Positions 1 through 48,934 of a stretch of 64,000 nucleotides of DNA are shown piece by piece (within the stretch, counting starts at the first letter, position 1; every line of letters begins with the position of its first letter). Origin of the DNA: Castor canadensis. Its lineage: Eukaryota; Chordata; Mammalia; Rodentia; Castoridae. The translations under genes were made by a program, and so were the position numbers. A model generated the notes under the pieces. The model saw only the letters and a program-made list of their open reading frames with translations, searched no databases and was not told where the DNA came from. The stretch spans positions 13,052,001 to 13,116,000 of the forward strand of contig NC_133401.1 in the NCBI RefSeq assembly GCF_047511655.1, given 5' to 3'.

Positions 1-484
1 GCGCCCCGCTCCAGCCAGAGCCTCTCCGGCGCGCCTGGCTCGTTTATTTACAGTCCCGGGAAGGGTTCCCTTCCCCCAATCTTCAGCGCTCAGGGCGCCC
101 CACCCTCTTTCCAGCGTGTCTTAACTGTTCTTATTGCTTAGTACTCAGTTTCTCTTTTTTTCCCGGGTGGAGGTCAGTCTGTCCAGGGGGCTATGCTGCT
201 CTGGCCCAGGCTTGTCTGTGGGGGAACCGCGGTACCACGAAGCTCACCTGGTCCGCGTCTTCCCAAGACGTATGGGCGCCGGCCACTGGCGGTCCCGGGG
301 GGCCTCCTCGGTTCTCCGTTTAACGTGAAGTGGAGATTCTCTGCGCCGGCTGGAGATGTGGAGGGGTCAAAGTTATGCCTTTTCTCGGTGATTATGCCTG
401 CAAAGTGTGTCTCCAGCGTCTCTCCAAGATTTCACTATAGGAGGCTCGCTTTCTGCTTCCTACCTCTAGCCGCCATCTTGGAAT
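1..484 (-). promoter_or_regulatory. Partial 5' UTR of the unit cut by the window edge
   Basis: This is the 5'-most 484 bp of another unit's L1 5' UTR, matching 2,781-3,264. It ends with the YY1-type site at 469-481 (minus strand CCAAGATGGCGGC). It is dense in CpG between about 220 and 350. An AATAAA hexamer reads on the minus strand at 43-48. The ORF2 stub of unit 1 is fused directly to its end. Confidence 0.9.
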
Positions 485-568
485 TCTCAAGCAGTGTCTT
501 TTGATGGGTGAGTTAAGTCCGTTAACATTAAGTGTTAGTACTGATAGGTATGTGGTGATTCCTGTCAT
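392..568 (-). pseudogene. Truncated L1 ORF2 start fused to the neighbouring 5' UTR (58-codon chimeric frame), repeated in every unit
   Basis: Fifty bases after the ORF1 stop, an ATG opens a frame beginning MTGITTYLSVLTLNVNGLNS. This is the conserved start of L1 ORF2p, ahead of the endonuclease domain. ORF2 similarity ends near codon 27 (KRHCL). The frame then reads through the 5' end of the adjacent unit and stops after 58 codons. No endonuclease, reverse transcriptase or Cys-rich domain follows. Equivalent start codons lie at 3348, 6127, 8907, 11686, 14465, 17246, 20026, 22805, 25584, 28364, 31143, 33923, 36703, 39483 and 42262. Whether the chimeric peptide is made is unknown. L1 ORF2 is normally translated inefficiently by reinitiation. 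Confidence 0.88.
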
Positions 569-618
569 TTAGTTGTCTTAGTTGTTTGAAGGTTTGATTG
601 TGTGTACCTAAGTTGAGG

Positions 619-3264: not shown

Positions 3265-3398
3265 TCTCAAGCAGTGTCTTTTGATGGGTGAGTTAAGTCC
3301 GTTAACATTAAGTGTTAGTACTGATAGGTATGTGGTGATTCCTGTCATTTAGTTGTCTTAGTTGTTTGAAGGTTTGATTGTGTGTACCTAAGTTGAGG

Positions 3399-6177: not shown

Positions 6178-7380
6178 TTACTCTCTACTGTCTTGCTTTT
6201 TCTTTTCCTGTGGTTTGGTGCTGCTTGTCTTTTCATGGTTAAGTTGGGTGTCACTTTCTGTGTGCAGGATCCCTTGCAGAATCTTTTGTAATGGTGGCTT
6301 TGTGGTCACATATTGTTTTAGTTTCTGCTTATCATGGAAGACTTTTATTGCTCCATCTATTTTGAATGATAGCTTTGCTGGGTAGAGTATCCTGGGGTTG
6401 AAGTTATTTTCATTCAGTGCCCGGAAGATCTCACCCCACGCTCTTCTTGCTTTTAATGTTTCTGTTGAGAAGTCTGCTGTGATTTTGATGGGTTTACCTT
6501 TGTATGTTACTTGTTTTTTCTCTCTTGCAGCCTTCAATATTCTTTCCTTAGTTTCTGAACTTGTTGTTTTAATGATGATATGTCGTGGAGTAGTTCTATT
6601 TTGATCTGGTCTGTTTGGTGTCCTGGAGGCCTCTTGCATCTGTATGGGAATATCTTTCTCTAGATTTGGGAAATTTTCCATTATTATTTTGTTGAATATA
6701 TTACGCATTCCCTTCGCTTGCACCTCTTCTCCTTCTTCGATGCCCATGATTCTCAAGTTTGGTCTTTTGATGGAGTCGGTGAGTTCTTGCATTTTCTTTT
6801 CACAGGTCTTGAGTTGTTTAATTAATAGTACTTCGGTTTTTCCTTTAATTACCATTTCATCTTCAAGTTCTGAGATTCTGTCTTCTGTTTGTTCTATTTT
6901 GCTGGATTGGCCTTCCGTTTTGTTTTGCAGTTCTGTTTCGTTCTTTTTTCTGAGGTTTTCCATATCCTGGCTGTTTTCTTCTTTATTGTTGTCTATTTTT
7001 GTCCTGAGTTCATTTATCCATTTATTCATTGTGTTCTCTCTTTCACTTTGGTGTTTATACAGTGCTTCTATGGTTTCCTTTATTTCTTCTTTTGCTTTTT
7101 CAAATTCTCTATTTTTATTGTCTTGGAATTTCTTGAGTGTCTCCTGTACATTTTGGTTGACCCTATCCAGTATCATCTCTATAAAATTCTCATTGAGTAC
7201 TTGTAGTATGTCTTCTTTTAAATTATTCTTGTAGGCTTCATTTGGTCCTTTGGCATAGTTTATCTTCATTTTGTTGGAGTCTGGCTCTGAGTTTCTGTTC
7301 TCTTCATTCCCCTCTGGTTCCTGTACTAATTTTTTGCTGTGGGAAAACTGGTTTCCTTGTTTTTTCTGTCTTCCTGTCAT
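6178..7380 (-). CDS. L1 ORF1: L1 ORF1p, unit 3, haplotype A, intact
   Basis: Complete ORF1 with Lys89 and Ile232. The 5' UTR of this unit has a 12-A run after the CA tract (about 7916-7927). Only unit 14 shares that run length, which links the two units. Confidence 0.95.
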   Translation of the reverse strand: MTGRQKKQGNQFSHSKKLVQEPEGNEENRNSEPDSNKMKINYAKGPNEAYKNNLKEDILQVLNENFIEMILDRVNQNVQETLKKFQDNKNREFEKAKEEIKETIEALYKHQSERENTMNKWINELRTKIDNNKEENSQDMENLRKKNETELQNKTEGQSSKIEQTEDRISELEDEMVIKGKTEVLLIKQLKTCEKKMQELTDSIKRPNLRIMGIEEGEEVQAKGMRNIFNKIIMENFPNLEKDIPIQMQEASRTPNRPDQNRTTPRHIIIKTTSSETKERILKAAREKKQVTYKGKPIKITADFSTETLKARRAWGEIFRALNENNFNPRILYPAKLSFKIDGAIKVFHDKQKLKQYVTTKPPLQKILQGILHTESDTQLNHEKTSSTKPQEKKKQDSRE

Positions 7381-8957
7381 TGTCCTTGGTGTTGTTACTG
7401 TCCCTGTACTGTGTGTAATTAAGTATTTTCTAGCTTGTAATAATAACAATGGTAATATTGAGAATGGAAGAGTGAGCTGAGATGGAAAGCAAGAAGTTAA
7501 AGAAAAGGGGAAAACAAATATACAGACAAGAGGGAGAAAGCAGAACAAGGTATCAGACAGGAGAGTTTCAAAGGTATAAACAGGGAGTGTTAGTGTACTA
7601 ATCGACAGTAAGCTGAACAGACAATAGAGAGACAGAGAGAGGATTGAAAATCAAAGATAAAAAAAATAAAAAATAAGTATATGAAAGTAATATCTATTTA
7701 TAAAAATGAATTAAAATAAAATGGAAAATAGGAAATTAAAAAAAAAAACCAAAAAACTTCCAAGTTTATATGCAATGCAATTTCAGTCTTAATAATTTGG
7801 ATGTCCGTCTTAATCTCCAGTCCTGGAGTTGGTGCCTCAGATGTTGTTCTGTAGTTGTCTCATCAAAGGGGATGCATAAAGTAGAACAAAACTACACTCA
7901 CACACACACAGAAGGAAAAAAAAAAAAGCCCAAGTGTCCCCAGTTCAAATGCAATACAGTTTCAGTAAGTTTTTCAGCTTGCAGGTGTAATTCGGTTGTT
8001 CTCTCATCAAAGGTAGGGAGAAAAAGAAAAAAAAGCGTCTGGAGGCAGTTCTGAGAGTGGTATCTGCAACTGTGGTTTGCCTGCCTGCTGCTCTCAGCCT
8101 GTAGCTGGAGGCGTTATTTATGCAGATCTCTGGGGTGAGCTTAGCACTCACCTGGTCCCACAGGCTTTGTTTGCTCAGAGTTCTCCTGTGCGGCGGCCTC
8201 TGCTACAGCCTTTCCCCTTTCCAAGCACTGGGAAAGGTGCCACTGCCCCGCGTTGTCAGGCCTGCGTGTTTATTTACAGTTCACGTGGGAAGTGGGTCTT
8301 CCCTCCTCTCACAAGCGTCCCCGCTCCTGGTTGCTGGGCGCGCCCCGCTCCAGCCAGAGCCTCTCCGGCGCGCCTGGCTCGTTTATTTACAGTCCCGGGA
8401 AGGGTTCCCTTCCCCCAATCTTCAGCGCTCAGGGCGCCCCACCCTCTTTCCAGCGTGTCTTAACTGTTCTTATTGCTTAGTACTCAGTTTCTCTTTTTTT
8501 CCCGGGTGGAGGTCAGTCTGTCCAGGGGGCTATGCTGCTCTGGCCCAGGCTTGTCTGTGGGGGAACCGCGGTACCACGAAGCTCACCTGGTCCGCGTCTT
8601 CCCAAGACGTATGGGCGCCGGCCACTGGCGGTCCCGGGGGGCCTCCTCGGTTCTCCGTTTAACGTGAAGTGGAGATTCTCTGCGCCGGCTGGAGATGTGG
8701 AGGGGTCAAAGTTATGCCTTTTCTCGGTGATTATGCCTGCAAAGTGTGTCTCCAGCGTCTCTCCAAGATTTCACTATAGGAGGCTCGCTTTCTGCTTCCT
8801 ACCTCTAGCCGCCATCTTGGAATTCTCAAGCAGTGTCTTTTGATGGGTGAGTTAAGTCCGTTAACATTAAGTGTTAGTACTGATAGGTATGTGGTGATTC
8901 CTGTCATTTAGTTGTCTTAGTTGTTTGAAGGTTTGATTGTGTGTACCTAAGTTGAGG

Positions 8958-10160
8958 TTACTCTCTACTGTCTTGCTTTTTCTTTTCCTGTGGTTTGGTG
9001 CTGCTTGTCTTTTCATGGTTAAGTTGGGTGTCACTTTCTGTGTGCAGGATCCCTTGCAGAATCTTTTGTAATGGTGGCTTTGTGGTCACATATTGTTTTA
9101 GTTTCTGCTTATCATGGAAGACTTTTATTGCTCCATCTATTTTGAATGATAGCTTTGCTGGGTAGAGTATCCTGGGGTTGAAGTTATTTTCATTCAGTGC
9201 CCGGAAGATCTCACCCCACGCTCTTCTTGCTTTTAATGTTTCTGTTGAGAAGTCTGCTGTGATTTTGATGGGTTTACCTTTGTATGTTACTTGTTTTTTC
9301 TCTCTTGCAGCCTTCAATATTCTTTCCTTAGTTTCTGAACTTGTTGTTTTAATGATGATATGTCGTGGAGTAGTTCTATTTTGATCTGGTCTGTTTGGTG
9401 TCCTGGAGGCCTCTTGCATCTGTATGGGAATATCTTTCTCTAGATTTGGGAAATTTTCCATTATTATTTTGTTGAATATATTACGCATTCCCTTCGCTTG
9501 CACCTCTTCTCCTTCTTCGATGCCCATGATTCTCAAGTTTGGTCTTTTGATGGAGTCGGTGAGTTCTTGCATTTTCTTTTCACAGGTCTTGAGTTGTTTA
9601 ATTAATAGTACTTCGGTTTTTCCTTTAATTACCATTTCATCTTCAAGTTCTGAGATTCTGTCTTCTGTTTGTTCTATTTTGCTGGATTGGCCTTCCGTTT
9701 TGTTTTGCAGTTCTGTTTCGTTCTTTTTTCTGAGGTTTTCCATATCCTGGCTGTTTTCTTCTTTATTGTTGTCTATTTTTGTCCTGAGTTCATTTATCCA
9801 TTTATTCATTGTGTTCTCTCTTTCACTTTGGTGTTTATACAGTGCTTCTATGGTTTCCTTTATTTCTTCTTTTGCTTTTTCAAATTCTCTATTTTTATTG
9901 TCTTGGAATTTCTTGAGTGTCTCCTGTACATTTTGGTTGACCCTATCCAGTATCATCTCTATAAAATTCTCATTGAGTACTTGTAGTATGTCTTCTTTTA
10001 AATTATTCTTGTAGGCTTCATTTGGTCCTTTGGCATAGTTTATCTTCATTTTGTTGGAGTCTGGCTCTGAGTTTCTGTTCTCTTCATTCCCCTCTGGTTC
10101 CTGTACTAATTTTTTGCTGTGGGAAAACTGGTTTCCTTGTTTTTTCTGTCTTCCTGTCAT
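8958..10160 (-). CDS. L1 ORF1: L1 ORF1p, unit 4, haplotype A, intact
   Basis: Complete ORF1 with Lys89 and Ile232, the same protein as units 3 and 15. It lies directly left of the B-type unit 5, just as unit 15 lies left of the B-type unit 16. Confidence 0.95.
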   Translation of the reverse strand: MTGRQKKQGNQFSHSKKLVQEPEGNEENRNSEPDSNKMKINYAKGPNEAYKNNLKEDILQVLNENFIEMILDRVNQNVQETLKKFQDNKNREFEKAKEEIKETIEALYKHQSERENTMNKWINELRTKIDNNKEENSQDMENLRKKNETELQNKTEGQSSKIEQTEDRISELEDEMVIKGKTEVLLIKQLKTCEKKMQELTDSIKRPNLRIMGIEEGEEVQAKGMRNIFNKIIMENFPNLEKDIPIQMQEASRTPNRPDQNRTTPRHIIIKTTSSETKERILKAAREKKQVTYKGKPIKITADFSTETLKARRAWGEIFRALNENNFNPRILYPAKLSFKIDGAIKVFHDKQKLKQYVTTKPPLQKILQGILHTESDTQLNHEKTSSTKPQEKKKQDSRE

Positions 10161-11736
10161 TGTCCTTGGTGTTGTTACTGTCCCTGTACTGTGTGTAATT
10201 AAGTATTTTCTAGCTTGTAATAATAACAATGGTAATATTGAGAATGGAAGAGTGAGCTGAGATGGAAAGCAAGAAGTTAAAGAAAAGGGGAAAACAAATA
10301 TACAGACAAGAGGGAGAAAGCAGAACAAGGTATCAGACAGGAGAGTTTCAAAGGTATAAACAGGGAGTGTTAGTGTACTAATCGACAGTAAGCTGAACAG
10401 ACAATAGAGAGACAGAGAGAGGATTGAAAATCAAAGATAAAAAAAATAAAAAATAAGTATATGAAAGTAATATCTATTTATAAAAATGAATTAAAATAAA
10501 ATGGAAAATAGGAAATTAAAAAAAAAAACCAAAAAACTTCCAAGTTTATATGCAATGCAATTTCAGTCTTAATAATTTGGATGTCCGTCTTAATCTCCAG
10601 TCCTGGAGTTGGTGCCTCAGATGTTGTTCTGTAGTTGTCTCATCAAAGGGGATGCATAAAGTAGAACAAAACTACACTCACACACACACAGAAGGAAAAA
10701 AAAAAAGCCCAAGTGTCCCCAGTTCAAATGCAATACAGTTTCAGTAAGTTTTTCAGCTTGCAGGTGTAATTCGGTTGTTCTCTCATCAAAGGTAGGGAGA
10801 AAAAGAAAAAAAAGCGTCTGGAGGCAGTTCTGAGAGTGGTATCTGCAACTGTGGTTTGCCTGCCTGCTGCTCTCAGCCTGTAGCTGGAGGCGTTATTTAT
10901 GCAGATCTCTGGGGTGAGCTTAGCACTCACCTGGTCCCACAGGCTTTGTTTGCTCAGAGTTCTCCTGTGCGGCGGCCTCTGCTACAGCCTTTCCCCTTTC
11001 CAAGCACTGGGAAAGGTGCCACTGCCCCGCGTTGTCAGGCCTGCGTGTTTATTTACAGTTCACGTGGGAAGTGGGTCTTCCCTCCTCTCACAAGCGTCCC
11101 CGCTCCTGGTTGCTGGGCGCGCCCCGCTCCAGCCAGAGCCTCTCCGGCGCGCCTGGCTCGTTTATTTACAGTCCCGGGAAGGGTTCCCTTCCCCCAATCT
11201 TCAGCGCTCAGGGCGCCCCACCCTCTTTCCAGCGTGTCTTAACTGTTCTTATTGCTTAGTACTCAGTTTCTCTTTTTTTCCCGGGTGGAGGTCAGTCTGT
11301 CCAGGGGGCTATGCTGCTCTGGCCCAGGCTTGTCTGTGGGGGAACCGCGGTACCACGAAGCTCACCTGGTCCGCGTCTTCCCAAGACGTATGGGCGCCGG
11401 CCACTGGCGGTCCCGGGGGGCCTCCTCGGTTCTCCGTTTAACGTGAAGTGGAGATTCTCTGCGCCGGCTGGAGATGTGGAGGGGTCAAAGTTATGCCTTT
11501 TCTCGGTGATTATGCCTGCAAAGTGTGTCTCCAGCGTCTCTCCAAGATTTCACTATAGGAGGCTCGCTTTCTGCTTCCTACCTCTAGCCGCCATCTTGGA
11601 ATTCTCAAGCAGTGTCTTTTGATGGGTGAGTTAAGTCCGTTAACATTAAGTGTTAGTACTGATAGGTATGTGGTGATTCCTGTCATTTAGTTGTCTTAGT
11701 TGTTTGAAGGTTTGATTGTGTGTACCTAAGTTGAGG

Positions 11737-12939
11737 TTACTCTCTACTGTCTTGCTTTTTCTTTTCCTGTGGTTTGGTGCTGCTTGTCTTTTCATGGTTA
11801 AGTTGGGTGTCACTTTCTGTGTGCAGGATCCCTTGCAGAATCTTTTGTAATGGTGGCTTTGTGGTCACATATTGTTTTAGTTTCTGCTTATCATGGAAGA
11901 CTTTTATTGCTCCATCTATTTTGAATGATAGCTTTGCTGGGTAGAGTATCCTGGGGTTGAAGTTATTTTCATTCAGTGCCCGGAAGATCTCACCCCACGC
12001 TCTTCTTGCTTTTAATGTTTCTGTTGAGAAGTCTGCTGTGATTTTGATGGGTTTACCTTTGTATGTTACTTGTTTTTTCTCTCTTGCAGCCTTCAATATT
12101 CTTTCCTTAGTTTCTGAACTTGTTGTTTTAATGATGATATGTCGTGGAGTAGTTCTATTTTGATCTGGTCTGTTTGGTGTCCTGGAGGCCTCTTGCATCT
12201 GTATGGGAATATCTTTCTCTAGATTTGGGAAATTTTCCATTATTATTTTGTTGAATATATTACGCATTCCCTTCGCTTGCACCTCTTCTCCTTCTTCGAT
12301 GCCCATGATTCTCAAGTTTGGTCTTTTGATGGAGTCGGTGAGTTCTTGCATTTTCTTTTCACAGGTCTTGAGTTGTTTAATTAATAGTACTTCGGTTTTT
12401 CCTTTAATTACCATTTCATCTTCAAGTTCTGAGATTCTGTCTTCTGTTTGTTCTATTTTGCTGGATTGGCCTTCCGTTTTGTTTTGCAGTTCTCTTTTGT
12501 TCTTTTTTCTGAGGTTTTCCATATCCTGGGTGGTTTCTTCTTTATTGTTGTCTATTTTTGTCCTGAGTTCATTTATCCGTTTATTCATTGTGTTCTCTGT
12601 TTCACTTTGGTTTTTATGCAATGCTTCTATGGTTTCCTTTATTTCTTCTTTTGCTTTTTCAAATTCTCTATTTTTGTTGTCTTGGAATTTCTTGAGTGTC
12701 TTCTGTACATTTTGGTTGACCCTATCCAGTATCATCTCTATAAAATTCTCATTGAGTACCTGTAGTATTTCTTCTTTTAAATTATTCTTGTGGGCTTCAT
12801 TGGGTCCTTTGGCATAGTTTATCTTCATTTTTTTGGCGTCTGGATCTGAGTATCTGTTCTCTTCATTCCCCTCTGGTTCCTGTACTAATTTTTTGCTGTG
12901 GGGAAACTGGTTTCCTTGTTTTTTCTGTCTTCCCGTCAT
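11737..12939 (-). CDS. L1 ORF1: L1 ORF1p, unit 5, haplotype B, intact
   Basis: Complete 400-codon ORF1 of the second haplotype. Relative to unit 1 it carries S13P, N30Y, E32D, S35A, N36K, Y50H, D57E, E80K, N89K, Y108H, H110N, R114T, W121R, N136T, S137T, E148K and T149R. All changes fall in the N-terminal region and coiled coil; residues 150-400 are unchanged. The protein matches unit 16. Just upstream of the ATG the DNA reverts to array type, so a recombination breakpoint lies near 12,940-12,950. Confidence 0.95.
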   Translation of the reverse strand: MTGRQKKQGNQFPHSKKLVQEPEGNEENRYSDPDAKKMKINYAKGPNEAHKNNLKEEILQVLNENFIEMILDRVNQNVQKTLKKFQDNKNREFEKAKEEIKETIEALHKNQSETENTMNKRINELRTKIDNNKEETTQDMENLRKKNKRELQNKTEGQSSKIEQTEDRISELEDEMVIKGKTEVLLIKQLKTCEKKMQELTDSIKRPNLRIMGIEEGEEVQAKGMRNIFNKIIMENFPNLEKDIPIQMQEASRTPNRPDQNRTTPRHIIIKTTSSETKERILKAAREKKQVTYKGKPIKITADFSTETLKARRAWGEIFRALNENNFNPRILYPAKLSFKIDGAIKVFHDKQKLKQYVTTKPPLQKILQGILHTESDTQLNHEKTSSTKPQEKKKQDSRE

Positions 12940-14515
12940 TGTCCTTGGTGTTGTTACTGTCCCTGTACTGTGTGTAATTAAGTATTTTCTAGCTTGTAAT
13001 AATAACAATGGTAATATTGAGAATGGAAGAGTGAGCTGAGATGGAAAGCAAGAAGTTAAAGAAAAGGGGAAAACAAATATACAGACAAGAGGGAGAAAGC
13101 AGAACAAGGTATCAGACAGGAGAGTTTCAAAGGTATAAACAGGGAGTGTTAGTGTACTAATCGACAGTAAGCTGAACAGACAATAGAGAGACAGAGAGAG
13201 GATTGAAAATCAAAGATAAAAAAAATAAAAAATAAGTATATGAAAGTAATATCTATTTATAAAAATGAATTAAAATAAAATGGAAAATAGGAAATTAAAA
13301 AAAAAAAACCAAAAAACTTCCAAGTTTATATGCAATGCAATTTCAGTCTTAATAATTTGGATGTCCGTCTTAATCTCCAGTCCTGGAGTTGGTGCCTCAG
13401 ATGTTGTTCTGTAGTTGTCTCATCAAAGGGGATGCATAAAGTAGAACAAAACTACACTCACACACACACAGAAGGAAAAAAAAAAGCCCAAGTGTCCCCA
13501 GTTCAAATGCAATACAGTTTCAGTAAGTTTTTCAGCTTGCAGGTGTAATTCGGTTGTTCTCTCATCAAAGGTAGGGAGAAAAAGAAAAAAAAGCGTCTGG
13601 AGGCAGTTCTGAGAGTGGTATCTGCAACTGTGGTTTGCCTGCCTGCTGCTCTCAGCCTGTAGCTGGAGGCGTTATTTATGCAGATCTCTGGGGTGAGCTT
13701 AGCACTCACCTGGTCCCACAGGCTTTGTTTGCTCAGAGTTCTCCTGTGCGGCGGCCTCTGCTACAGCCTTTCCCCTTTCCAAGCACTGGGAAAGGTGCCA
13801 CTGCCCCGCGTTGTCAGGCCTGCGTGTTTATTTACAGTTCACGTGGGAAGTGGGTCTTCCCTCCTCTCACAAGCGTCCCCGCTCCTGGTTGCTGGGCGCG
13901 CCCCGCTCCAGCCAGAGCCTCTCCGGCGCGCCTGGCTCGTTTATTTACAGTCCCGGGAAGGGTTCCCTTCCCCCAATCTTCAGCGCTCAGGGCGCCCCAC
14001 CCTCTTTCCAGCGTGTCTTAACTGTTCTTATTGCTTAGTACTCAGTTTCTCTTTTTTTCCCGGGTGGAGGTCAGTCTGTCCAGGGGGCTATGCTGCTCTG
14101 GCCCAGGCTTGTCTGTGGGGGAACCGCGGTACCACGAAGCTCACCTGGTCCGCGTCTTCCCAAGACGTATGGGCGCCGGCCACTGGCGGTCCCGGGGGGC
14201 CTCCTCGGTTCTCCGTTTAACGTGAAGTGGAGATTCTCTGCGCCGGCTGGAGATGTGGAGGGGTCAAAGTTATGCCTTTTCTCGGTGATTATGCCTGCAA
14301 AGTGTGTCTCCAGCGTCTCTCCAAGATTTCACTATAGGAGGCTCGCTTTCTGCTTCCTACCTCTAGCCGCCATCTTGGAATTCTCAAGCAGTGTCTTTTG
14401 ATGGGTGAGTTAAGTCCGTTAACATTAAGTGTTAGTACTGATAGGTATGTGGTGATTCCTGTCATTTAGTTGTCTTAGTTGTTTGAAGGTTTGATTGTGT
14501 GTACCTAAGTTGAGG

Positions 14516-18499: not shown

Positions 18500-20076
18500 T
18501 GTCCTTGGTGTTGTTACTGTCCCTGTACTGTGTGTAATTAAGTATTTTCTAGCTTGTAATAATAACAATGGTAATATTGAGAATGGAAGAGTGAGCTGAG
18601 ATGGAAAGCAAGAAGTTAAAGAAAAGGGGAAAACAAATATACAGACAAGAGGGAGAAAGCAGAACAAGGTATCAGACAGGAGAGTTTCAAAGGTATAAAC
18701 AGGGAGTGTTAGTGTACTAATCGACAGTAAGCTGAACAGACAATAGAGAGACAGAGAGAGGATTGAAAATCAAAGATAAAAAAAATAAAAAATAAGTATA
18801 TGAAAGTAATATCTATTTATAAAAATGAATTAAAATAAAATGGAAAATAGGAAATTAAAAAAAAAAAACCAAAAAACTTCCAAGTTTATATGCAATGCAA
18901 TTTCAATCTTAATAATTTGGATGTCCGTCTTAATCTCCAGTCCTGGAGTTGGTGCCTCAGATGTTGTTCTGTAGTTGTCTCATCAAAGGGGATGCATAAA
19001 GTAGAACAAAACTACACTCACACACACACAGAAGGAAAAAAAAAAAGCCCAAGTGTCCCCAGTTCAAATGCAATACAGTTTCAGTAAGTTTTTCAGCTTG
19101 CAGGTGTAATTCGGTTGTTCTCTCATCAAAGGTAGGGAGAAAAAGAAAAAAAAGCGTCTGGAGGCAGTTCTGAGAGTGGTATCTGCAACTGTGGTTTGCC
19201 TGCCTGCTGCTCTCAGCCTGTAGCTGGAGGCGTTATTTATGCAGATCTCTGGGGTGAGCTTAGCACTCACCTGGTCCCACAGGCTTTGTTTGCTCAGAGT
19301 TCTCCTGTGCGGCGGCCTCTGCTACAGCCTTTCCCCTTTCCAAGCACTGGGAAAGGTGCCACTGCCCCGCGTTGTCAGGCCTGCGTGTTTATTTACAGTT
19401 CACGTGGGAAGTGGGTCTTCCCTCCTCTCACAAGCGTCCCCGCTCCTGGTTGCTGGGCGCGCCCCGCTCCAGCCAGAGCCTCTCCGGCGCGCCTGGCTCG
19501 TTTATTTACAGTCCCGGGAAGGGTTCCCTTCCCCCAATCTTCAGCGCTCAGGGCGCCCCACCCTCTTTCCAGCGTGTCTTAACTGTTCTTATTGCTTAGT
19601 ACTCAGTTTCTCTTTTTTTCCCGGGTGGAGGTCAGTCTGTCCAGGGGGCTATGCTGCTCTGGCCCAGGCTTGTCTGTGGGGGAACCGCGGTACCACGAAG
19701 CTCACCTGGTCCGCGTCTTCCCAAGACGTATGGGCGCCGGCCACTGGCGGTCCCGGGGGGCCTCCTCGGTTCTCCGTTTAACGTGAAGTGGAGATTCTCT
19801 GCGCCGGCTGGAGATGTGGAGGGGTCAAAGTTATGCCTTTTCTCGGTGATTATGCCTGCAAAGTGTGTCTCCAGCGTCTCTCCAAGATTTCACTATAGGA
19901 GGCTCGCTTTCTGCTTCCTACCTCTAGCCGCCATCTTGGAATTCTCAAGCAGTGTCTTTTGATGGGTGAGTTAAGTCCGTTAACATTAAGTGTTAGTACT
20001 GATAGGTATGTGGTGATTCCTGTCATTTAGTTGTCTTAGTTGTTTGAAGGTTTGATTGTGTGTACCTAAGTTGAGG

Positions 20077-21279
20077 TTACTCTCTACTGTCTTGCTTTTT
20101 CTTTTCCTGTGGTTTGGTGCTGCTTGTCTTTTCATGGTTAAGTTGGGTGTCACTTTCTGTGTGCAGGATCCCTTGCAGAATCTTTTGTAATGGTGGCTTT
20201 GTGGTCACATATTGTTTTAGTTTCTGCTTATCATGGAAGACTTTTATTGCTCCATCTATTTTGAATGATAGCTTTGCTGGGTAGAGTATCCTGGGGTTGA
20301 AGTTATTTTCATTCAGTGCCCGGAAGATCTCACCCCACGCTCTTCTTGCTTTTAATGTTTCTGTTGAGAAGTCTGCTGTGATTTTGATGGGTTTACCTTT
20401 GTATGTTACTTGTTTTTTCTCTCTTGCAGCCTTCAATATTCTTTCCTTAGTTTCTGAACTTGTTGTTTTAATGATGATATGTCGTGGAGTAGTTCTATTT
20501 TGATCTGGTCTGTTTGGTGTCCTGGAGGCCTCTTGCATCTGTATGGGAATATCTTTCTCTAGATTTGGGAAATTTTCCATTATTATTTTGTTGAATATAT
20601 TACGCATTCCCTTCGCTTGCACCTCTTCTCCTTCTTCGATGCCCATGATTCTCAAGTTTGGTCTTTTGATGGAGTCGGTGAGTTCTTGCATTTTCTTTTC
20701 ACAGGTCTTGAGTTGTTTAATTAATAGTACTTCGGTTTTTCCTTTAATTACCATTTCATCTTCAAGTTCTGAGATTCTGTCTTCTGTTTGTTCTATTTTG
20801 CTGGATTGGCCTTCCGTTTTGTTTTGCAGTTCTGTTTCGTTCTTTTTTCTGAGGTTTTCCATATCCTGGCTGTTTTCTTCTTTATTGTTGTCTATTTTTG
20901 TCCTGAGTTCATTTATCCGTTTATTCATTGTGTTCTCTGTTTCACTTTGGTTTTTATGCAATGCTTCTATGGTTTCCTTTATTTCTTCTTTTGCTTTTTC
21001 AAATTCTCTATTTTTGTTGTCTTGGAATTTCTTGAGTGTCTCCTGTACATTTTGGTTGACCCTATCCAGTATCATCTCTATAAAATTCTCATTGAGTACT
21101 TGTAGTATGTCTTCTTTTAAATTATTCTTGTAGGCTTCATTTGGTCCTTTGGCATAGTTTATCTTCATTTTGTTGGAGTCTGGCTCTGAGTTTCTGTTCT
21201 CTTCATTCCCCTCTGGTTCCTGTACTAATTTTTTGCTGTGGGAAAACTGGTTTCCTTGTTTTTTCTGTCTTCCTGTCAT
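20077..21279 (-). CDS. L1 ORF1: L1 ORF1p, unit 8, A/B mosaic, intact
   Basis: Complete ORF1 that is haplotype A except for a short B segment giving His108, Asn110, Thr114 and Arg121. The B markers span 20,919-21,016. A markers resume by about 20,873 on one side and 21,042 on the other. This is the signature of a conversion tract of roughly 100-170 bp inside the coiled-coil coding region. Confidence 0.95.
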   Translation of the reverse strand: MTGRQKKQGNQFSHSKKLVQEPEGNEENRNSEPDSNKMKINYAKGPNEAYKNNLKEDILQVLNENFIEMILDRVNQNVQETLKKFQDNKNREFEKAKEEIKETIEALHKNQSETENTMNKRINELRTKIDNNKEENSQDMENLRKKNETELQNKTEGQSSKIEQTEDRISELEDEMVIKGKTEVLLIKQLKTCEKKMQELTDSIKRPNLRIMGIEEGEEVQAKGMRNIFNKIIMENFPNLEKDIPIQMQEASRTPNRPDQNRTTPRHIIIKTTSSETKERILKAAREKKQVTYKGKPIKITADFSTETLKARRAWGEIFRALNENNFNPRILYPAKLSFKIDGAIKVFHDKQKLKQYVTTKPPLQKILQGILHTESDTQLNHEKTSSTKPQEKKKQDSRE

Positions 21280-24058: not shown

Positions 24059-25634
24059 TGTCCTTGGTGTTGTTACTGTCCCTGTACTGTGTGTAATTAA
24101 GTATTTTCTAGCTTGTAATAATAACAATGGTAATATTGAGAATGGAAGAGTGAGCTGAGATGGAAAGCAAGAAGTTAAAGAAAAGGGGAAAACAAATATA
24201 CAGACAAGAGGGAGAAAGCAGAACAAGGTATCAGACAGGAGAGTTTCAAAGGTATAAACAGGGAGTGTTAGTGTACTAATCGACAGTAAGCTGAACAGAC
24301 AATAGAGAGACAGAGAGAGGATTGAAAATCAAAGATAAAAAAAATAAAAAATAAGTATATGAAAGTAATATCTATTTATAAAAATGAATTAAAATAAAAT
24401 GGAAAATAGGAAATTAAAAAAAAAAAACCAAAAAACTTCCAAGTTTATATGCAATGCAATTTCAGTCTTAATAATTTGGATGTCCGTCTTAATCTCCAGT
24501 CCTGGAGTTGGTGCCTCAGATGTTGTTCTGTAGTTGTCTCATCAAAGGGGATGCATAAAGTAGAACAAAACTACACTCACACACACACAGAAGGAAAAAA
24601 AAAAGCCCAAGTGTCCCCAGTTCAAATGCAATACAGTTTCAGTAAGTTTTTCAGCTTGCAGGTGTAATTCGGTTGTTCTCTCATCAAAGGTAGGGAGAAA
24701 AAGAAAAAAAAGCGTCTGGAGGCAGTTCTGAGAGTGGTATCTGCAACTGTGGTTTGCCTGCCTGCTGCTCTCAGCCTGTAGCTGGAGGCGTTATTTATGC
24801 AGATCTCTGGGGTGAGCTTAGCACTCACCTGGTCCCACAGGCTTTGTTTGCTCAGAGTTCTCCTGTGCGGCGGCCTCTGCTACAGCCTTTCCCCTTTCCA
24901 AGCACTGGGAAAGGTGCCACTGCCCCGCGTTGTCAGGCCTGCGTGTTTATTTACAGTTCACGTGGGAAGTGGGTCTTCCCTCCTCTCACAAGCGTCCCCG
25001 CTCCTGGTTGCTGGGCGCGCCCCGCTCCAGCCAGAGCCTCTCCGGCGCGCCTGGCTCGTTTATTTACAGTCCCGGGAAGGGTTCCCTTCCCCCAATCTTC
25101 AGCGCTCAGGGCGCCCCACCCTCTTTCCAGCGTGTCTTAACTGTTCTTATTGCTTAGTACTCAGTTTCTCTTTTTTTCCCGGGTGGAGGTCAGTCTGTCC
25201 AGGGGGCTATGCTGCTCTGGCCCAGGCTTGTCTGTGGGGGAACCGCGGTACCACGAAGCTCACCTGGTCCGCGTCTTCCCAAGACGTATGGGCGCCGGCC
25301 ACTGGCGGTCCCGGGGGGCCTCCTCGGTTCTCCGTTTAACGTGAAGTGGAGATTCTCTGCGCCGGCTGGAGATGTGGAGGGGTCAAAGTTATGCCTTTTC
25401 TCGGTGATTATGCCTGCAAAGTGTGTCTCCAGCGTCTCTCCAAGATTTCACTATAGGAGGCTCGCTTTCTGCTTCCTACCTCTAGCCGCCATCTTGGAAT
25501 TCTCAAGCAGTGTCTTTTGATGGGTGAGTTAAGTCCGTTAACATTAAGTGTTAGTACTGATAGGTATGTGGTGATTCCTGTCATTTAGTTGTCTTAGTTG
25601 TTTGAAGGTTTGATTGTGTGTACCTAAGTTGAGG

Positions 25635-37956: not shown

Positions 37957-39533
37957 TGTCCTTGGTGTTGTTACTGTCCCTGTACTGTGTGTAATTAAGT
38001 ATTTTCTAGCTTGTAATAATAACAATGGTAATATTGAGAATGGAAGAGTGAGCTGAGATGGAAAGCAAGAAGTTAAAGAAAAGGGGAAAACAAATATACA
38101 GACAAGAGGGAGAAAGCAGAACAAGGTATCAGACAGGAGAGTTTCAAAGGTATAAACAGGGAGTGTTAGTGTACTAATCGACAGTAAGCTGAACAGACAA
38201 TAGAGAGACAGAGAGAGGATTGAAAATCAAAGATAAAAAAAATAAAAAATAAGTATATGAAAGTAATATCTATTTATAAAAATGAATTAAAATAAAATGG
38301 AAAATAGGAAATTAAAAAAAAAAACCAAAAAACTTCCAAGTTTATATGCAATGCAATTTCAGTCTTAATAATTTGGATGTCCGTCTTAATCTCCAGTCCT
38401 GGAGTTGGTGCCTCAGATGTTGTTCTGTAGTTGTCTCATCAAAGGGGATGCATAAAGTAGAACAAAACTACACTCACACACACACAGAAGGAAAAAAAAA
38501 AAAGCCCAAGTGTCCCCAGTTCAAATGCAATACAGTTTCAGTAAGTTTTTCAGCTTGCAGGTGTAATTCGGTTGTTCTCTCATCAAAGGTAGGGAGAAAA
38601 AGAAAAAAAAGCGTCTGGAGGCAGTTCTGAGAGTGGTATCTGCAACTGTGGTTTGCCTGCCTGCTGCTCTCAGCCTGTAGCTGGAGGCGTTATTTATGCA
38701 GATCTCTGGGGTGAGCTTAGCACTCACCTGGTCCCACAGGCTTTGTTTGCTCAGAGTTCTCCTGTGCGGCGGCCTCTGCTACAGCCTTTCCCCTTTCCAA
38801 GCACTGGGAAAGGTGCCACTGCCCCGCGTTGTCAGGCCTGCGTGTTTATTTACAGTTCACGTGGGAAGTGGGTCTTCCCTCCTCTCACAAGCGTCCCCGC
38901 TCCTGGTTGCTGGGCGCGCCCCGCTCCAGCCAGAGCCTCTCCGGCGCGCCTGGCTCGTTTATTTACAGTCCCGGGAAGGGTTCCCTTCCCCCAATCTTCA
39001 GCGCTCAGGGCGCCCCACCCTCTTTCCAGCGTGTCTTAACTGTTCTTATTGCTTAGTACTCAGTTTCTCTTTTTTTCCCGGGTGGAGGTCAGTCTGTCCA
39101 GGGGGCTATGCTGCTCTGGCCCAGGCTTGTCTGTGGGGGAACCGCGGTACCACGAAGCTCACCTGGTCCGCGTCTTCCCAAGACGTATGGGCGCCGGCCA
39201 CTGGCGGTCCCGGGGGGCCTCCTCGGTTCTCCGTTTAACGTGAAGTGGAGATTCTCTGCGCCGGCTGGAGATGTGGAGGGGTCAAAGTTATGCCTTTTCT
39301 CGGTGATTATGCCTGCAAAGTGTGTCTCCAGCGTCTCTCCAAGATTTCACTATAGGAGGCTCGCTTTCTGCTTCCTACCTCTAGCCGCCATCTTGGAATT
39401 CTCAAGCAGTGTCTTTTGATGGGTGAGTTAAGTCCGTTAACATTAAGTGTTAGTACTGATAGGTATGTGGTGATTCCTGTCATTTAGTTGTCTTAGTTGT
39501 TTGAAGGTTTGATTGTGTGTACCTAAGTTGAGG

Positions 39534-40736
39534 TTACTCTCTACTGTCTTGCTTTTTCTTTTCCTGTGGTTTGGTGCTGCTTGTCTTTTCATGGTTAAGT
39601 TGGGTGTCACTTTCTGTGTGCAGGATCCCTTGCAGAATCTTTTGTAATGGTGGCTTTGTGGTCACATATTGTTTTAGTTTCTGCTTATCATGGAAGACTT
39701 TTATTGCTCCATCTATTTTGAATGATAGCTTTGCTGGGTAGAGTATCCTGGGGTTGAAGTTATTTTCATTCAGTGCCCGGAAGATCTCACCCCACGCTCT
39801 TCTTGCTTTTAATGTTTCTGTTGAGAAGTCTGCTGTGATTTTGATGGGTTTACCTTTGTATGTTACTTGTTTTTTCTCTCTTGCAGCCTTCAATATTCTT
39901 TCCTTAGTTTCTGAACTTGTTGTTTTAATGATGATATGTCGTGGAGTAGTTCTATTTTGATCTGGTCTGTTTGGTGTCCTGGAGGCCTCTTGCATCTGTA
40001 TGGGAATATCTTTCTCTAGATTTGGGAAATTTTCCATTATTATTTTGTTGAATATATTACGCATTCCCTTCGCTTGCACCTCTTCTCCTTCTTCGATGCC
40101 CATGATTCTCAAGTTTGGTCTTTTGATGGAGTCGGTGAGTTCTTGCATTTTCTTTTCACAGGTCTTGAGTTGTTTAATTAATAGTACTTCGGTTTTTCCT
40201 TTAATTACCATTTCATCTTCAAGTTCTGAGATTCTGTCTTCTGTTTGTTCTATTTTGCTGGATTGGCCTTCCGTTTTGTTTTGCAGTTCTGTTTCGTTCT
40301 TTTTTCTGAGGTTTTCCATATCCTGGCTGTTTTCTTCTTTATTGTTGTCTATTTTTGTCCTGAGTTCATTTATCCATTTATTCATTGTGTTCTCTCTTTC
40401 ACTTTGGTGTTTATACAGTGCTTCTATGGTTTCCTTTATTTCTTCTTTTGCTTTTTCAAATTCTCTATTTTTATTGTCTTGGAATTTCTTGAGTGTCTCC
40501 TGTACATTTTGGTTGACCCTATCCAGTATCATCTCTATAAAATTCTCATTGAGTACTTGTAGTATGTCTTCTTTTAAATTATTCTTGTAGGCTTCATTTG
40601 GTCCTTTGGCATAGTTTATCTTCATTTTGTTGGAGTCTGGCTCTGAGTTTCTGTTCTCTTCATTCCCCTCTGGTTCCTGTACTAATTTTTTGCTGTGGGA
40701 AAACTGGTTTCCTTGTTTTTTCTGTCTTCCTGTCAT
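39534..40736 (-). CDS. L1 ORF1: L1 ORF1p, unit 15, haplotype A, intact
   Basis: Complete ORF1 with Lys89 and Ile232, the same protein as units 3 and 4. It is the last unit with an array-type CpG-rich 5' UTR. Confidence 0.95.
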   Translation of the reverse strand: MTGRQKKQGNQFSHSKKLVQEPEGNEENRNSEPDSNKMKINYAKGPNEAYKNNLKEDILQVLNENFIEMILDRVNQNVQETLKKFQDNKNREFEKAKEEIKETIEALYKHQSERENTMNKWINELRTKIDNNKEENSQDMENLRKKNETELQNKTEGQSSKIEQTEDRISELEDEMVIKGKTEVLLIKQLKTCEKKMQELTDSIKRPNLRIMGIEEGEEVQAKGMRNIFNKIIMENFPNLEKDIPIQMQEASRTPNRPDQNRTTPRHIIIKTTSSETKERILKAAREKKQVTYKGKPIKITADFSTETLKARRAWGEIFRALNENNFNPRILYPAKLSFKIDGAIKVFHDKQKLKQYVTTKPPLQKILQGILHTESDTQLNHEKTSSTKPQEKKKQDSRE

Positions 40737-42312
40737 TGTCCTTGGTGTTGTTACTGTCCCTGTACTGTGTGTAATTAAGTATTTTCTAGCTTGTAATAAT
40801 AACAATGGTAATATTGAGAATGGAAGAGTGAGCTGAGATGGAAAGCAAGAAGTTAAAGAAAAGGGGAAAACAAATATACAGACAAGAGGGAGAAAGCAGA
40901 ACAAGGTATCAGACAGGAGAGTTTCAAAGGTATAAACAGGGAGTGTTAGTGTACTAATCGACAGTAAGCTGAACAGACAATAGAGAGACAGAGAGAGGAT
41001 TGAAAATCAAAGATAAAAAAAATAAAAAATAAGTATATGAAAGTAATATCTATTTATAAAAATGAATTAAAATAAAATGGAAAATAGGAAATTAAAAAAA
41101 AAAACCAAAAAACTTCCAAGTTTATATGCAATGCAATTTCAGTCTTAATAATTTGGATGTCCGTCTTAATCTCCAGTCCTGGAGTTGGTGCCTCAGATGT
41201 TGTTCTGTAGTTGTCTCATCAAAGGGGATGCATAAAGTAGAACAAAACTACACTCACACACACACAGAAGGAAAAAAAAAAAGCCCAAGTGTCCCCAGTT
41301 CAAATGCAATACAGTTTCAGTAAGTTTTTCAGCTTGCAGGTGTAATTCGGTTGTTCTCTCATCAAAGGTAGGGAGAAAAAGAAAAAAAAGCGTCTGGAGG
41401 CAGTTCTGAGAGTGGTATCTGCAACTGTGGTTTGCCTGCCTGCTGCTCTCAGCCTGTAGCTGGAGGCGTTATTTATGCAGATCTCTGGGGTGAGCTTAGC
41501 ACTCACCTGGTCCCACAGGCTTTGTTTGCTCAGAGTTCTCCTGTGCGGCGGCCTCTGCTACAGCCTTTCCCCTTTCCAAGCACTGGGAAAGGTGCCACTG
41601 CCCCGCGTTGTCAGGCCTGCGTGTTTATTTACAGTTCACGTGGGAAGTGGGTCTTCCCTCCTCTCACAAGCGTCCCCGCTCCTGGTTGCTGGGCGCGCCC
41701 CGCTCCAGCCAGAGCCTCTCCGGCGCGCCTGGCTCGTTTATTTACAGTCCCGGGAAGGGTTCCCTTCCCCCAATCTTCAGCGCTCAGGGCGCCCCACCCT
41801 CTTTCCAGCGTGTCTTAACTGTTCTTATTGCTTAGTACTCAGTTTCTCTTTTTTTCCCGGGTGGAGGTCAGTCTGTCCAGGGGGCTATGCTGCTCTGGCC
41901 CAGGCTTGTCTGTGGGGGAACCGCGGTACCACGAAGCTCACCTGGTCCGCGTCTTCCCAAGACGTATGGGCGCCGGCCACTGGCGGTCCCGGGGGGCCTC
42001 CTCGGTTCTCCGTTTAACGTGAAGTGGAGATTCTCTGCGCCGGCTGGAGATGTGGAGGGGTCAAAGTTATGCCTTTTCTCGGTGATTATGCCTGCAAAGT
42101 GTGTCTCCAGCGTCTCTCCAAGATTTCACTATAGGAGGCTCGCTTTCTGCTTCCTACCTCTAGCCGCCATCTTGGAATTCTCAAGCAGTGTCTTTTGATG
42201 GGTGAGTTAAGTCCGTTAACATTAAGTGTTAGTACTGATAGGTATGTGGTGATTCCTGTCATTTAGTTGTCTTAGTTGTTTGAAGGTTTGATTGTGTGTA
42301 CCTAAGTTGAGG

Positions 42313-43515
42313 TTACTCTCTACTGTCTTGCTTTTTCTTTTCCTGTGGTTTGGTGCTGCTTGTCTTTTCATGGTTAAGTTGGGTGTCACTTTCTGTGTGC
42401 AGGATCCCTTGCAGAATCTTTTGTAATGGTGGCTTTGTGGTCACATATTGTTTTAGTTTCTGCTTATCATGGAAGACTTTTATTGCTCCATCTATTTTGA
42501 ATGATAGCTTTGCTGGGTAGAGTATCCTGGGGTTGAAGTTATTTTCATTCAGTGCCCGGAAGATCTCACCCCACGCTCTTCTTGCTTTTAATGTTTCTGT
42601 TGAGAAGTCTGCTGTGATTTTGATGGGTTTACCTTTGTATGTTACTTGTTTTTTCTCTCTTGCAGCCTTCAATATTCTTTCCTTAGTTTCTGAACTTGTT
42701 GTTTTAATGATGATATGTCGTGGAGTAGTTCTATTTTGATCTGGTCTGTTTGGTGTCCTGGAGGCCTCTTGCATCTGTATGGGAATATCTTTCTCTAGAT
42801 TTGGGAAATTTTCCATTATTATTTTGTTGAATATATTACGCATTCCCTTCGCTTGCACCTCTTCTCCTTCTTCGATGCCCATGATTCTCAAGTTTGGTCT
42901 TTTGATGGAGTCGGTGAGTTCTTGCATTTTCTTTTCACAGGTCTTGAGTTGTTTAATTAATAGTACTTCGGTTTTTCCTTTAATTACCATTTCATCTTCA
43001 AGTTCTGAGATTCTGTCTTCTGTTTGTTCTATTTTGCTGGATTGGCCTTCCGTTTTGTTTTGCAGTTCTCTTTTGTTCTTTTTTCTGAGGTTTTCCATAT
43101 CCTGGGTGGTTTCTTCTTTATTGTTGTCTATTTTTGTCCTGAGTTCATTTATCCGTTTATTCATTGTGTTCTCTGTTTCACTTTGGTTTTTATGCAATGC
43201 TTCTATGGTTTCCTTTATTTCTTCTTTTGCTTTTTCAAATTCTCTATTTTTGTTGTCTTGGAATTTCTTGAGTGTCTTCTGTACATTTTGGTTGACCCTA
43301 TCCAGTATCATCTCTATAAAATTCTCATTGAGTACCTGTAGTATTTCTTCTTTTAAATTATTCTTGTGGGCTTCATTGGGTCCTTTGGCATAGTTTATCT
43401 TCATTTTTTTGGCGTCTGGATCTGAGTATCTGTTCTCTTCATTCCCCTCTGGTTCCTGTACTAATTTTTTGCTGTGGGGAAACTGGTTTCCTTGTTTTTT
43501 CTGTCTTCCCGTCAT
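42313..43515 (-). CDS. L1 ORF1: L1 ORF1p, unit 16 (array edge), haplotype B, intact
   Basis: Complete 400-codon ORF1 with the full set of B residues listed for unit 5. Upstream of its ATG the sequence departs from all other units, and the open frame extends only 23 codons (to 43,584) instead of 56. The ORF1 is intact even though its own 5' UTR is diverged, so ORF1 seems homogenised or preserved independently of the flank. Confidence 0.95.
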   Translation of the reverse strand: MTGRQKKQGNQFPHSKKLVQEPEGNEENRYSDPDAKKMKINYAKGPNEAHKNNLKEEILQVLNENFIEMILDRVNQNVQKTLKKFQDNKNREFEKAKEEIKETIEALHKNQSETENTMNKRINELRTKIDNNKEETTQDMENLRKKNKRELQNKTEGQSSKIEQTEDRISELEDEMVIKGKTEVLLIKQLKTCEKKMQELTDSIKRPNLRIMGIEEGEEVQAKGMRNIFNKIIMENFPNLEKDIPIQMQEASRTPNRPDQNRTTPRHIIIKTTSSETKERILKAAREKKQVTYKGKPIKITADFSTETLKARRAWGEIFRALNENNFNPRILYPAKLSFKIDGAIKVFHDKQKLKQYVTTKPPLQKILQGILHTESDTQLNHEKTSSTKPQEKKKQDSRE

Positions 43516-45128
43516 TGTCTTTGGTGTTGTTACTGTCCCTGTACTGTGTGCAATTAAGTATTTTCTAGCTTGTAATAATAACAATGGTAATATTTAGAAT
43601 AGAAGTGTGAACTGAGATGGAAAGCAAGAAGTTAACGAAATGGGAAAAACAAATACACAGACTAGAAGGAGAAAACAGAGCAAGGTATCAGATAAGAAGG
43701 TTTCAAGGGTATAAACAGGGAGTGTTAGTGTACTAATTGACAGTAATCTGAACAGTCATTAGAGATTGGGATAGGATTGAAAATCAAAAATAAAAAAAAG
43801 ATAAGAATAAAAATAAAAAATAAGTAAATGAAAGAAAAATCTATATATAAAAATGTATTAAAATAAAATGAAAAAATAGAAAATTTTAAAAAACCAAAAA
43901 ACAAAAAATCCTCCAAGTTCAAATGCAATGAAGTTTCAGTCTTAATAATTTGGGTGTCTGTCTCAGTCTCCAATCCTGGAGATGGTGCCTCAGAAGTTGT
44001 TCTGTAGTTGTCTCATCAAAAGGGATGCATAAAGTAGAACAAAACTACACATACACACACAAAAAAAAAAAAAACACCAAGTGTCCCATGTTCAAATGCA
44101 ATACAGTTTCAGTAAGTTTTTCAGCTTACAGTTGTAATTTGGTTGTTCTCTCATCAAAGGTCGGGAGACAAAGAAAAAAAAAGTCTGGAGACAGTTCTGA
44201 GAATGGTATCTGCAGCTGTGGCTTGCCTGCCCATTGCTGTCACCCTGCTGTTGCTGGAGGCATTATTTATGCAGACCTCTGGGGTGAGCTTAGCACTCAC
44301 CTGGCCCTGCAGGTGTTGTTTACCCAGAGTTTTCCTGTGAGCCTCTGCTACAAGCTTTCCCCTTTCCAAGCACTGGGAAAAGTGACACTGCACCCGCATT
44401 CTCAGACCTGCGTGTTTATTTACAGTTCATGTGGGAAGTGGATCTTCCCCCCTCTCCTGTGCAGTTTTCCTCCCACCGCCACTTTTACAAGCTTTCCTGC
44501 TCCTGATTACAGGGCAGTGCTGCTGCTCCTGCCAGCCGCCATCTTTTTTTACAGTTCACGTGGGAAGTGGGTCTTCCCTCCTCTCCTGTGGAATTTTCCT
44601 CCCTCCACCACTCTCACCAGCTTTCCCGCTCCTGGTTGCTGGGTGCGCCCCTGCTCCCACCAGAGCCTCTCCTGCCCGCCTGGCTTGTTTATTTACATTC
44701 CCAGGAAGGATTCCCTTCCCCCAATCTTCAGAGCTCAGGGCGCCCCACCCTCTTTCCCGCGTGTCTTTATTGCTCTTATTGCTTATTACTGAGTTTCTCT
44801 TTTTTTCCCTGGGTGGGGGTCAGTCTGTCCAGGGGGCTATGCTGCTGGGGTCCAGGCTTGTCTGTGGGAGTACCACGGTACCACGAAGCTCACCTGGTTC
44901 ACGTCTTCCCAAGCCTTCTGGGTACCGGTGACTGGTGGCCCGGGGGCCCTCCTGGTTTCTCCGTTTAATGTGAAGTGGAGATTCTCTGTGCCGGCTGGAA
45001 GTGTGGAGGGGTCAAAGTATGCCTCTTCTCAGTGATTATGTCTGCATAGTGTGTCTCCAGTGTCCCTCCAAGATTTCACTGTAGGAGACTCGCTTTCTGC
45101 TTCCTCCCTCTAGCCGCCATCTTGGAAT
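43516..45128 (-). promoter_or_regulatory. Diverged 5' UTR of the terminal unit 16
   Basis: This 1,613 bp region is colinear with the array 5' UTR but has many substitutions and is ~170 bp longer. Most CpGs of the array version are TG or CA here, for example around 44,870-44,950. It has three GTTTATTTACA-type subrepeats (near 44,416, 44,545 and 44,688) where array units have two. A second YY1-type core (minus AAGATGGCGGC) sits internally at 44,535-44,545, besides the terminal one at 45,113-45,125. An E-box survives at 44,557-44,562. It ends at the same base as the internal unit junctions, then meets unrelated flank. This is probably the natural 5' end of the founding L1. Confidence 0.8.
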
Positions 45129-46963: not shown

Positions 46964-46969
46964 TCAAAA

Positions 46970-47615
46970 ATTTGTTTTGTTTATGTTCTTGATGCCAGCC
47001 ATCCAAACAGGTGTGAGGGGAAATCTTACCATGGATTTGCCTTGCAAATGGCTGGAGATGTTGAGCATTTCTTCTTGTGTTTTGGGGATATTTGAACTTC
47101 TTCCATTGAAAAAGCTCTGTTCAGTTCATTTGCCCATTTCTTCACTGGGTCATTGGTTTTTTTGGGAGTTTAGTTTCTCAAACTCCCTGTGTATTCCTTT
47201 GTCAGATGTATAGGCTGCAAAGTTTTTCTCCTATTCTGTGAGCAGTTTCTTCACTCTAGTGACCATTTCTTTTCTTGTGCAGAGCTTTTTAATTTCAAGC
47301 AGTCCCATTGTTAGTCCTTTCCCTTAGTTGCTAAGCCATTTGAGTTCTATTTAGGAATTCATTTCCCCATCCTTTTAATTCCAGCATATTCCCTGCTTTT
47401 TCCTTCAGTAGGTTCAAAGTTTCAGGTCTTTTTTAAGATCTTTATTTCACTTTGAGTTGCTATTTGTACAGGGTGAAAACCATGGATCTTGTTTCAGTTT
47501 TCTGCATGCAGATATCCAGTTTTCCCAGGATATTTGTTGAAGAGGCTGTCTTTTCTCCACTATGTGTTTTGGGTTCTTTGTTCAAAAATCCATTGACTGT
47601 ATCTGTGTCCTTTTA
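46970..47615 (-). mobile_element. L1 ORF2 fragment (antisense), copy 1
   Basis: On the minus strand this is the L1 ORF2 segment between the reverse transcriptase and the C-terminus. On the plus strand it reads as the usual TTCTTGATGCCAGCCATCC...GTGTGAGG...ATGGATTTGCCTTGC series found in antisense L1. It is frame-broken and ends near the L1 word TCAAAAATCCATTGACTGTA. Confidence 0.75.
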
Positions 47616-48910: not shown

Positions 48911-48934
48911 AATTCCCAATCCATGAGTAAACCA

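Follow-up and report, generated by a model that had tools for sequence, protein, structure and literature searches.

A macrosatellite made of L1 5' halves in Castor canadensis and its probable origin by nested insertion and unequal exchange

Structure of the array and its surroundings

The window analyzed in this study, a 64,000-nucleotide stretch of the Castor canadensis genome, opens inside a long tandem array whose units derive from an L1 5' half. Alignment of the repeat unit to the window placed 16 head-to-tail units and one partial unit on the minus strand of positions 1-45128, and no copies were found elsewhere in the window. The count of 16 is a lower bound, because the window start falls within the partial unit and the array continues past it. 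Units are numbered here from the edge (u0) toward the window start (u16). The main features are as follows.

1..45128, minus strand: L1 5'-half macrosatellite, consisting of edge unit u0, complete internal units u1 to u15, and partial unit u16
39400..42178, minus strand: u1, representative of the internal units, 2779 bp long (5' UTR, ORF1, ORF2 stub)
40737..42178, minus strand: 5' UTR of u1
39534..40736, minus strand: ORF1 of u1, 400 aa, in the form typical of the array
42179..45128, minus strand: u0, the outermost unit, 2950 bp, with its own divergent 5' UTR
42313..43515, minus strand: ORF1 of u0, 400 aa, encoding the same protein as ORF1 of u11
42179..42262, minus strand: ORF2 stub with 28 native codons, too short for an endonuclease or reverse transcriptase domain

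On the sense strand, the consensus unit comprises a 5' UTR (1-1443), ORF1 (1444-2646), a 50-bp spacer, and the start of ORF2 (2697-2780), which runs directly into the 5' UTR of the next unit; the unit is composed of L1-type sequence only. The 400-codon ORFs on the minus strand (n=16) follow one another at intervals of 2779-2781 bp. The start of ORF2 was likewise found 16 times, as was the ORF2-to-5'UTR junction, which is identical in all 16 cases. These observations bear out the first-pass annotation, which had described at least 16 head-to-tail units of ~2.78 kb. Its array bounds of 1..45128 hold at the right end (45128) and fail at the left, where the window begins inside u16. Its picture of sixteen alike units also needs amendment: u1-u15 are complete and near-identical, with pairwise differences at 0-26 positions per ~2780 bp, and the sixteenth, u0, is an edge unit with a distinctly different 5' UTR. 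With kilobase-sized units arranged head to tail at high identity (15 full internal units), the array is a macrosatellite. Its unit is an L1 derivative and not an autonomous L1; an ORF2 with endonuclease and reverse transcriptase, a 3' UTR, and a poly(A) are all missing from it. The absence of both enzymatic domains had been correctly noted, since only the 28 native ORF2 codons are present; the stub frame stays open for 30 more codons within the 5' UTR of the next unit. Rfam at gathering thresholds gave 0 matches, as did an exact search of viral contigs with the first 22 bases of the unit.

An intact ORF1 in each unit had likewise been proposed, and ORF1 (400 aa) is indeed open to its expected stop in 16/16 copies, which encode 7 distinct protein forms. 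Both L1 ORF1p domains were detected in the single copy scanned, at 619-1821 (Pfam PF02994, 6.8e-28, and PF17490, 1.8e-23), so that this copy has the RRM-like and C-terminal dsRBD-like domains of an L1 ORF1p; it also matched LINE-1 ORF1p in PDB 2yko (6.5e-62), with the alignment extending over residues 160-383. Among the best 120 of 619 protein matches, the closest organism-named one is from Castor canadensis (82% identity over 63% of the query), the others with organism names are three Cnephaeus nilssonii (bat) proteins (40-45%), and metagenome proteins reach up to 91% identity over shorter stretches. A pattern search with ORF1 returned 5 stretches in viral contigs and 11 in prokaryote genome contigs, none of which encodes a relative; this is expected because the sequence is mammalian.

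Several features lie beyond the array. The stretches 46971-49734 and 60288-63100 are ~84% alike over ~2.8 kb, and further similarity (77%) links 49605-50321 and 63238-63991, near GGT-rich simple repeats; together these similar flanking stretches may reflect an old, local duplication event adjacent to the array. A cytochrome P450 fragment at 56590-56952 on the plus strand (Pfam p450, 8.7e-07; best PDB match P450 2A13, 4.3e-12) suggests that the array may be located near a CYP2A-type gene or pseudogene. An L1 ORF2 fragment was also identified at 54510-54923 on the minus strand (PDB LINE-1 ORF2p match, 1.2e-51). The ORFs at 51702-51974, 46869-47213, and 60129-60464 resemble further L1 ORF2 remnants by eye only, and a Pfam scan of 51702-51974 and 60129-60464 found nothing.

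The edge unit and the founding junction

Unit u0 starts at 45128 beside a non-array flank, and this flank (45129-46970) has no second copy in the window. In the 5' UTR of u0, 152 of 1429 aligned bases (10.6%; 9.3% at non-CpG sites) deviate from the array consensus, and there are 13 indel events. CpGs number 43 in the array 5' UTR and 19 in that of u0, with 16 common to both, and 16 of the 26 CpG losses listed in u0 are CG>CA or CG>TG. Because of this divergence and the mostly CG>CA/TG losses, the u0 5' UTR looks older than the array 5' UTR, as judged from CpG loss without an outgroup. Farther inward the difference shrinks: the N-terminal half of u0 ORF1 differs from the consensus at 21 of 447 bases (4.7%), up to unit position 1890, and the last 890 bp of u0 show 0 differences. 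Thus, the inner part of u0 has been homogenized with the array interior, while the outer part was not. A simple old-element account leaves unexplained why the divergence of the ORF1 N-half is lower than that of the 5' UTR.

The u0 5' UTR also contains a 121-bp internal duplication (82% alike; 44415-44663), where internal units appear to be single-copy, and a 255-codon ORF runs antisense to it on the plus strand (44025-44792). Neither this 255-aa ORF nor an antisense ORF of 204 aa (found twice, one copy scanned) matched a Pfam family at E <= 0.001. Both were discounted, being probably chance frames.

Two target-site-like sequences mark the places where a 5' UTR begins.

42179..42196, minus strand: target-site-like AAAAGACACTGCTTGAGA, directly upstream of the u1 5' end, the same at 16/16 junctions
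45129..45147, minus strand: target-site-like AAAACCACTAACTAGAGGG, in the flank directly upstream of the u0 5' end

The unit junction joins ORF2 codon 28 to the first base of the L1, which is the same base at which u0 meets the flank; the canonical 5' end of this L1 family is deduced from u0 and the array only, and no other family copies that could fix it were present in the window, the viral contigs, or the prokaryote contigs. At the junction, TC is followed by the 18 nt of AAAAGACACTGCTTGAGA, which begin with AAAA after the C, and the endonuclease-like site TC/AAAA (slash at the boundary) falls between ORF2 codons 22 and 23. In the u0 flank, AT is followed by the 19 nt of AAAACCACTAACTAGAGGG, which begin with AAAA after the T and whose first 17 bases occur a single time in the window. 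We take both sequences to resemble an L1 endonuclease site followed by a target-site duplication of the usual length. They look like an endonuclease-like site plus a target-site-like sequence, with modest statistical weight: [CT]AAAA would start 12-20 nt before a randomly chosen point with a probability of 0.138 in the ORF1-to-stub sequence and 0.022 in the flank. For the unit junction alone, the chance is thus 14%, and this match was noticed first and tested afterwards.

In our assessment, this young macrosatellite of L1 5' halves probably arose through nested insertion of an L1 in the same orientation, followed by unequal exchange. In the first step, a younger full-length L1 would have entered an older, like-oriented L1 whose 5' end is at 45128, integrating by target-primed reverse transcription at the endonuclease-like TC/AAAA of the older ORF2. 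Such an insertion would leave two adjacent direct copies, each 2.78 kb long and without a spacer between them, of the 5' UTR, ORF1, and the ORF2 start. That the u0 5' UTR is poorer in CpGs is consistent with a younger L1 having entered an older host element. Recombination between two separate L1s was rejected as the origin of the junction; the unit would then hold intervening DNA, and there is none. Nested insertion has also been put forward for the CRM tandem repeats of maize, in passages of PMC3648361.

Two other founding events were weighed against this one. The founding dimer could have arisen from one retrotransposition with template jumping, in which the reverse transcriptase passed from the 5' end of one L1 RNA into ORF2 of another, and unequal exchange followed. 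This event would likewise give the exact L1 5' end at the junction without a spacer; it is nevertheless rather unlikely here, as the older-looking u0 5' UTR, with its 19 CpGs against 43, suggests two insertions at different times. DNA-level tandem duplication, by microhomology joining or replication template switching, is a plausible general route to tandem repeats. A chance join between ORF2 codon 28 and the L1 5' end could have been made in this way before unequal exchange set in, and the exchange signatures described below fit this route equally well. We consider it improbable at this locus, however, for the breakpoint would need a chance hit on the exact L1 5'-end base seen at u0.

These readings differ in what they predict for the 3' end of the array. 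If nested insertion is true, that end should consist of a full ORF2, a 3' UTR, and a poly(A), followed by AAAAGACACTGCTTGA and the remainder of a second ORF2, that of the older L1. Under template jumping, a single poly(A) and a duplicated AAAACCACTAACTAGA would be expected instead, and a chance DNA duplication predicts neither a second poly(A) nor an ORF2 duplication there. It is often difficult to retrace how satellites arose from transposons; the present array is young, and its founding junction can still be read. With an edge unit that still carries a different, older-looking 5' UTR, the locus may offer one satellite-forming route with exact predictions for its far end.

Exchange among units and possible function

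Variation among the internal units centers on three stretches.

11603..14381, minus strand: u11, an array-type 5' UTR joined to a u0-type ORF1
19943..25500, minus strand: u8 and u7, identical neighbors
7002..12943, minus strand: 5942-bp stretch with an exact copy at 37578-43519, at a distance of 11 units, a candidate crossover-fossil block

Units u1-u15 show 34 variable columns, including 30 SNVs, and 21 of the 30 belong to a haplotype common to u11 and u0. The other 9 SNVs in the 15 units, 3 of them within ORF1, amount to a diversity of 0.072%, which indicates that the present units are recent copies. There are 11 distinct SNV haplotypes among the 15 units, and no higher-order repeat was seen in their order (A B C D E F G G H H I A A J K). 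Inflation of one or two units to 16 by the assembly is hardly credible in view of these 11 haplotypes. The longest exact repeats over lags 1-14, at 5942 and 4326 bp, can moreover be spanned by ordinary long reads, and the flank that anchors the edge unit is single-copy within the window.

Traces of exchange are seen directly in the unit sequences. Units u11 and u0 end in an identical stretch of 1341 bp, and their agreement ceases sharply at unit position ~1438; u7 and u8 carry 6 of the 21 u0/u11-type SNVs (unit 1707-1804) as a short mosaic tract in ORF1. The 5942-bp block consists of the u11 tail, u12, and the first 1822 bp of u13; only 2 differences separate u0tail-u1-u2 from u11tail-u12-u13, and a rare extra T at 896 is found in u2 and u13 only. 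When the unit order was shuffled and the best of 11 lags taken, the 2-difference match was equaled in 66 of 20000 trials, for a lag-11 block that had been chosen after its 5.9-kb exact repeat was seen. Beyond u13 the shift is not clean (u14 vs u3, 4 differences; u15 vs u4, 2), and whole-unit pairs differ on average hardly more at lag 12 (2.0) than at lag 11 (1.8), both means being low partly because those pairs avoid u7, u8, and u11. One crossover at an 11-unit offset, joining the 5' UTR of a unit to the ORF1 of u0, may have produced u11 and the 5942-bp block; given the u14/u15 mismatches and the similarly low mean at lag 12, later events must be assumed.

In the second step of the nested-insertion model, unequal crossing over between the two founding copies, and later between units, would have raised the number to at least 16. 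Conversion and repeated exchange would hold the interior uniform, and the outer part of the edge unit would have escaped them. The units cannot move themselves because they have no endonuclease, reverse transcriptase, or 3' UTR; this and the exchange signatures support the earlier claim of spread by DNA recombination. The accompanying statement that retrotransposition was not involved is not supported for the whole history, since the founding junction resembles a retrotransposition product, with a full-length L1 5' end after a target-site-like ORF2 sequence. As a third step, the array most likely persists as a neutral or selfish by-product.

In principle, every unit might be transcribed from its own start and yield ORF1p. 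In the consensus 5' UTR, unit position 6 carries a YY1-like AAGATGGCGGC and the first 900 bp have a CpG o/e of 0.6; 16/16 ORF1 copies are intact, with both conserved domains in the single copy scanned. It is nonetheless very unlikely that the array is a maintained, expressed cluster of ORF1p-only genes, serving as a trans-acting or inhibitory source of ORF1p or as a decoy for L1 repressors. The intactness of ORF1 follows from recent homogenization, after which few mutations have yet arisen (9 SNVs apart from the u0/u11 haplotype, with 3 in ORF1), and only about 5% (0.054) of random ORF1 substitutions yield a stop; intact ORF1s would thus be expected from youth alone and are not evidence of use. 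Between the u0/u11 and consensus ORF1, 16 codons differ nonsynonymously and 5 synonymously, which speaks against strong constraint; the NG86 estimates over the first 450 bp (dN 0.044, dS 0.069, dN/dS about 0.64) do not separate constraint from drift. Furthermore, the 4 upstream ATGs of the consensus 5' UTR, its splice-donor-like sites at 235 and 670, and the AATAAA hexamers located upstream of and within ORF1 could each stop a productive ORF1 message.

A transcript that began in the preceding unit could terminate at the hexamers of the 5' UTR (unit positions 437 and 550), or the unit's own transcript could be cut short there, presuming that AATAAA acts as a poly(A) signal here, and that AAGATGGCGGC is a YY1 site, both roles being putative. 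As a marker of transcript ends the hexamer was discarded: it has little meaning alone in an A-rich sequence with five more inside ORF1 (1705, 1740, 1798, 1837, 2475). No evidence of selection or function was found in the array sequence, and the roles proposed in the first-pass annotation, among them an ORF1p factory, a decoy, and a small-RNA source, gained no support from it. It is highly improbable that a self-amplified promoter-plus-ORF1 cluster makes germline ORF1p without ORF2p and so acts in trans as an L1-derived brake on, or helper of, active L1s. The locus may still be a natural experiment, in which one site brings together an L1 5' UTR and ORF1 in 16 or more copies, without ORF2.

Comparison with known systems

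HAL1 half-LINEs are L1 derivatives with ORF1 and without reverse transcriptase; they are dispersed, were moved in trans, and have a 3' UTR and a tail. The array units share the possession of ORF1 without reverse transcriptase, but they are tandem and have neither 3' UTR nor tail, so that the units in the window do not represent dispersed, tailed copies of the HAL1 kind.

L1-derived satellites are already known, from the 3' part of L1 in cetaceans and from ORF2 in Phodopus and Phoca, according to passages of PMC9659126. The common cetacean satellite (Kapitonov et al. 1998, cited in PMC9659126) is, like the present array, a mammalian L1-derived unit; its source is the 3'-terminal portion of L1, whereas the array consists of 5' UTR and ORF1. 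PROsat of Phodopus and Pvc20 of Phoca are L1-associated tandem or simple repeats in mammals, one of them a rodent, and unlike the array they are related to ORF2 segments, as described in the same passages (PMC9659126). Sections of a 2025 review name the untranslated regions of LINEs as a source of satellites and discuss unequal exchange and nested insertions (PMC12628747). In the parts of the beaver draft genome paper concerned, LINE1 and satellites account for 13.52% and 0.03% of the assembly, respectively (PMC5295618), and an L1 origin is not mentioned in the relevant text on marten macrosatellites (PMC9957230). Among the matches listed in a search of open-licence papers with narrow terms, no report was found of an array that keeps the L1 5' UTR and an intact ORF1; within that scope, an array of promoter plus ORF1 is a new form of L1-derived satellite.

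Similar to the array, CRM1TR and CRM4TR of maize are tandem repeats from a retrotransposon segment with a proposed nested insertion, and conversion was proposed as their main homogenizer; they differ in stemming from the LTR-UTR junction region of an LTR retrotransposon and in lying at the centromere or pericentromere, as far as the passages cited go (PMC3648361). The D4Z4 repeat (DUX4) resembles the array in that each of its 3.3-kb tandem units contains a retrogene ORF. In D4Z4, that ORF is a host retrogene and not an L1 gene, and passages of the literature present repression and a role in disease as established for it (PMC8122249, PMC3616921).
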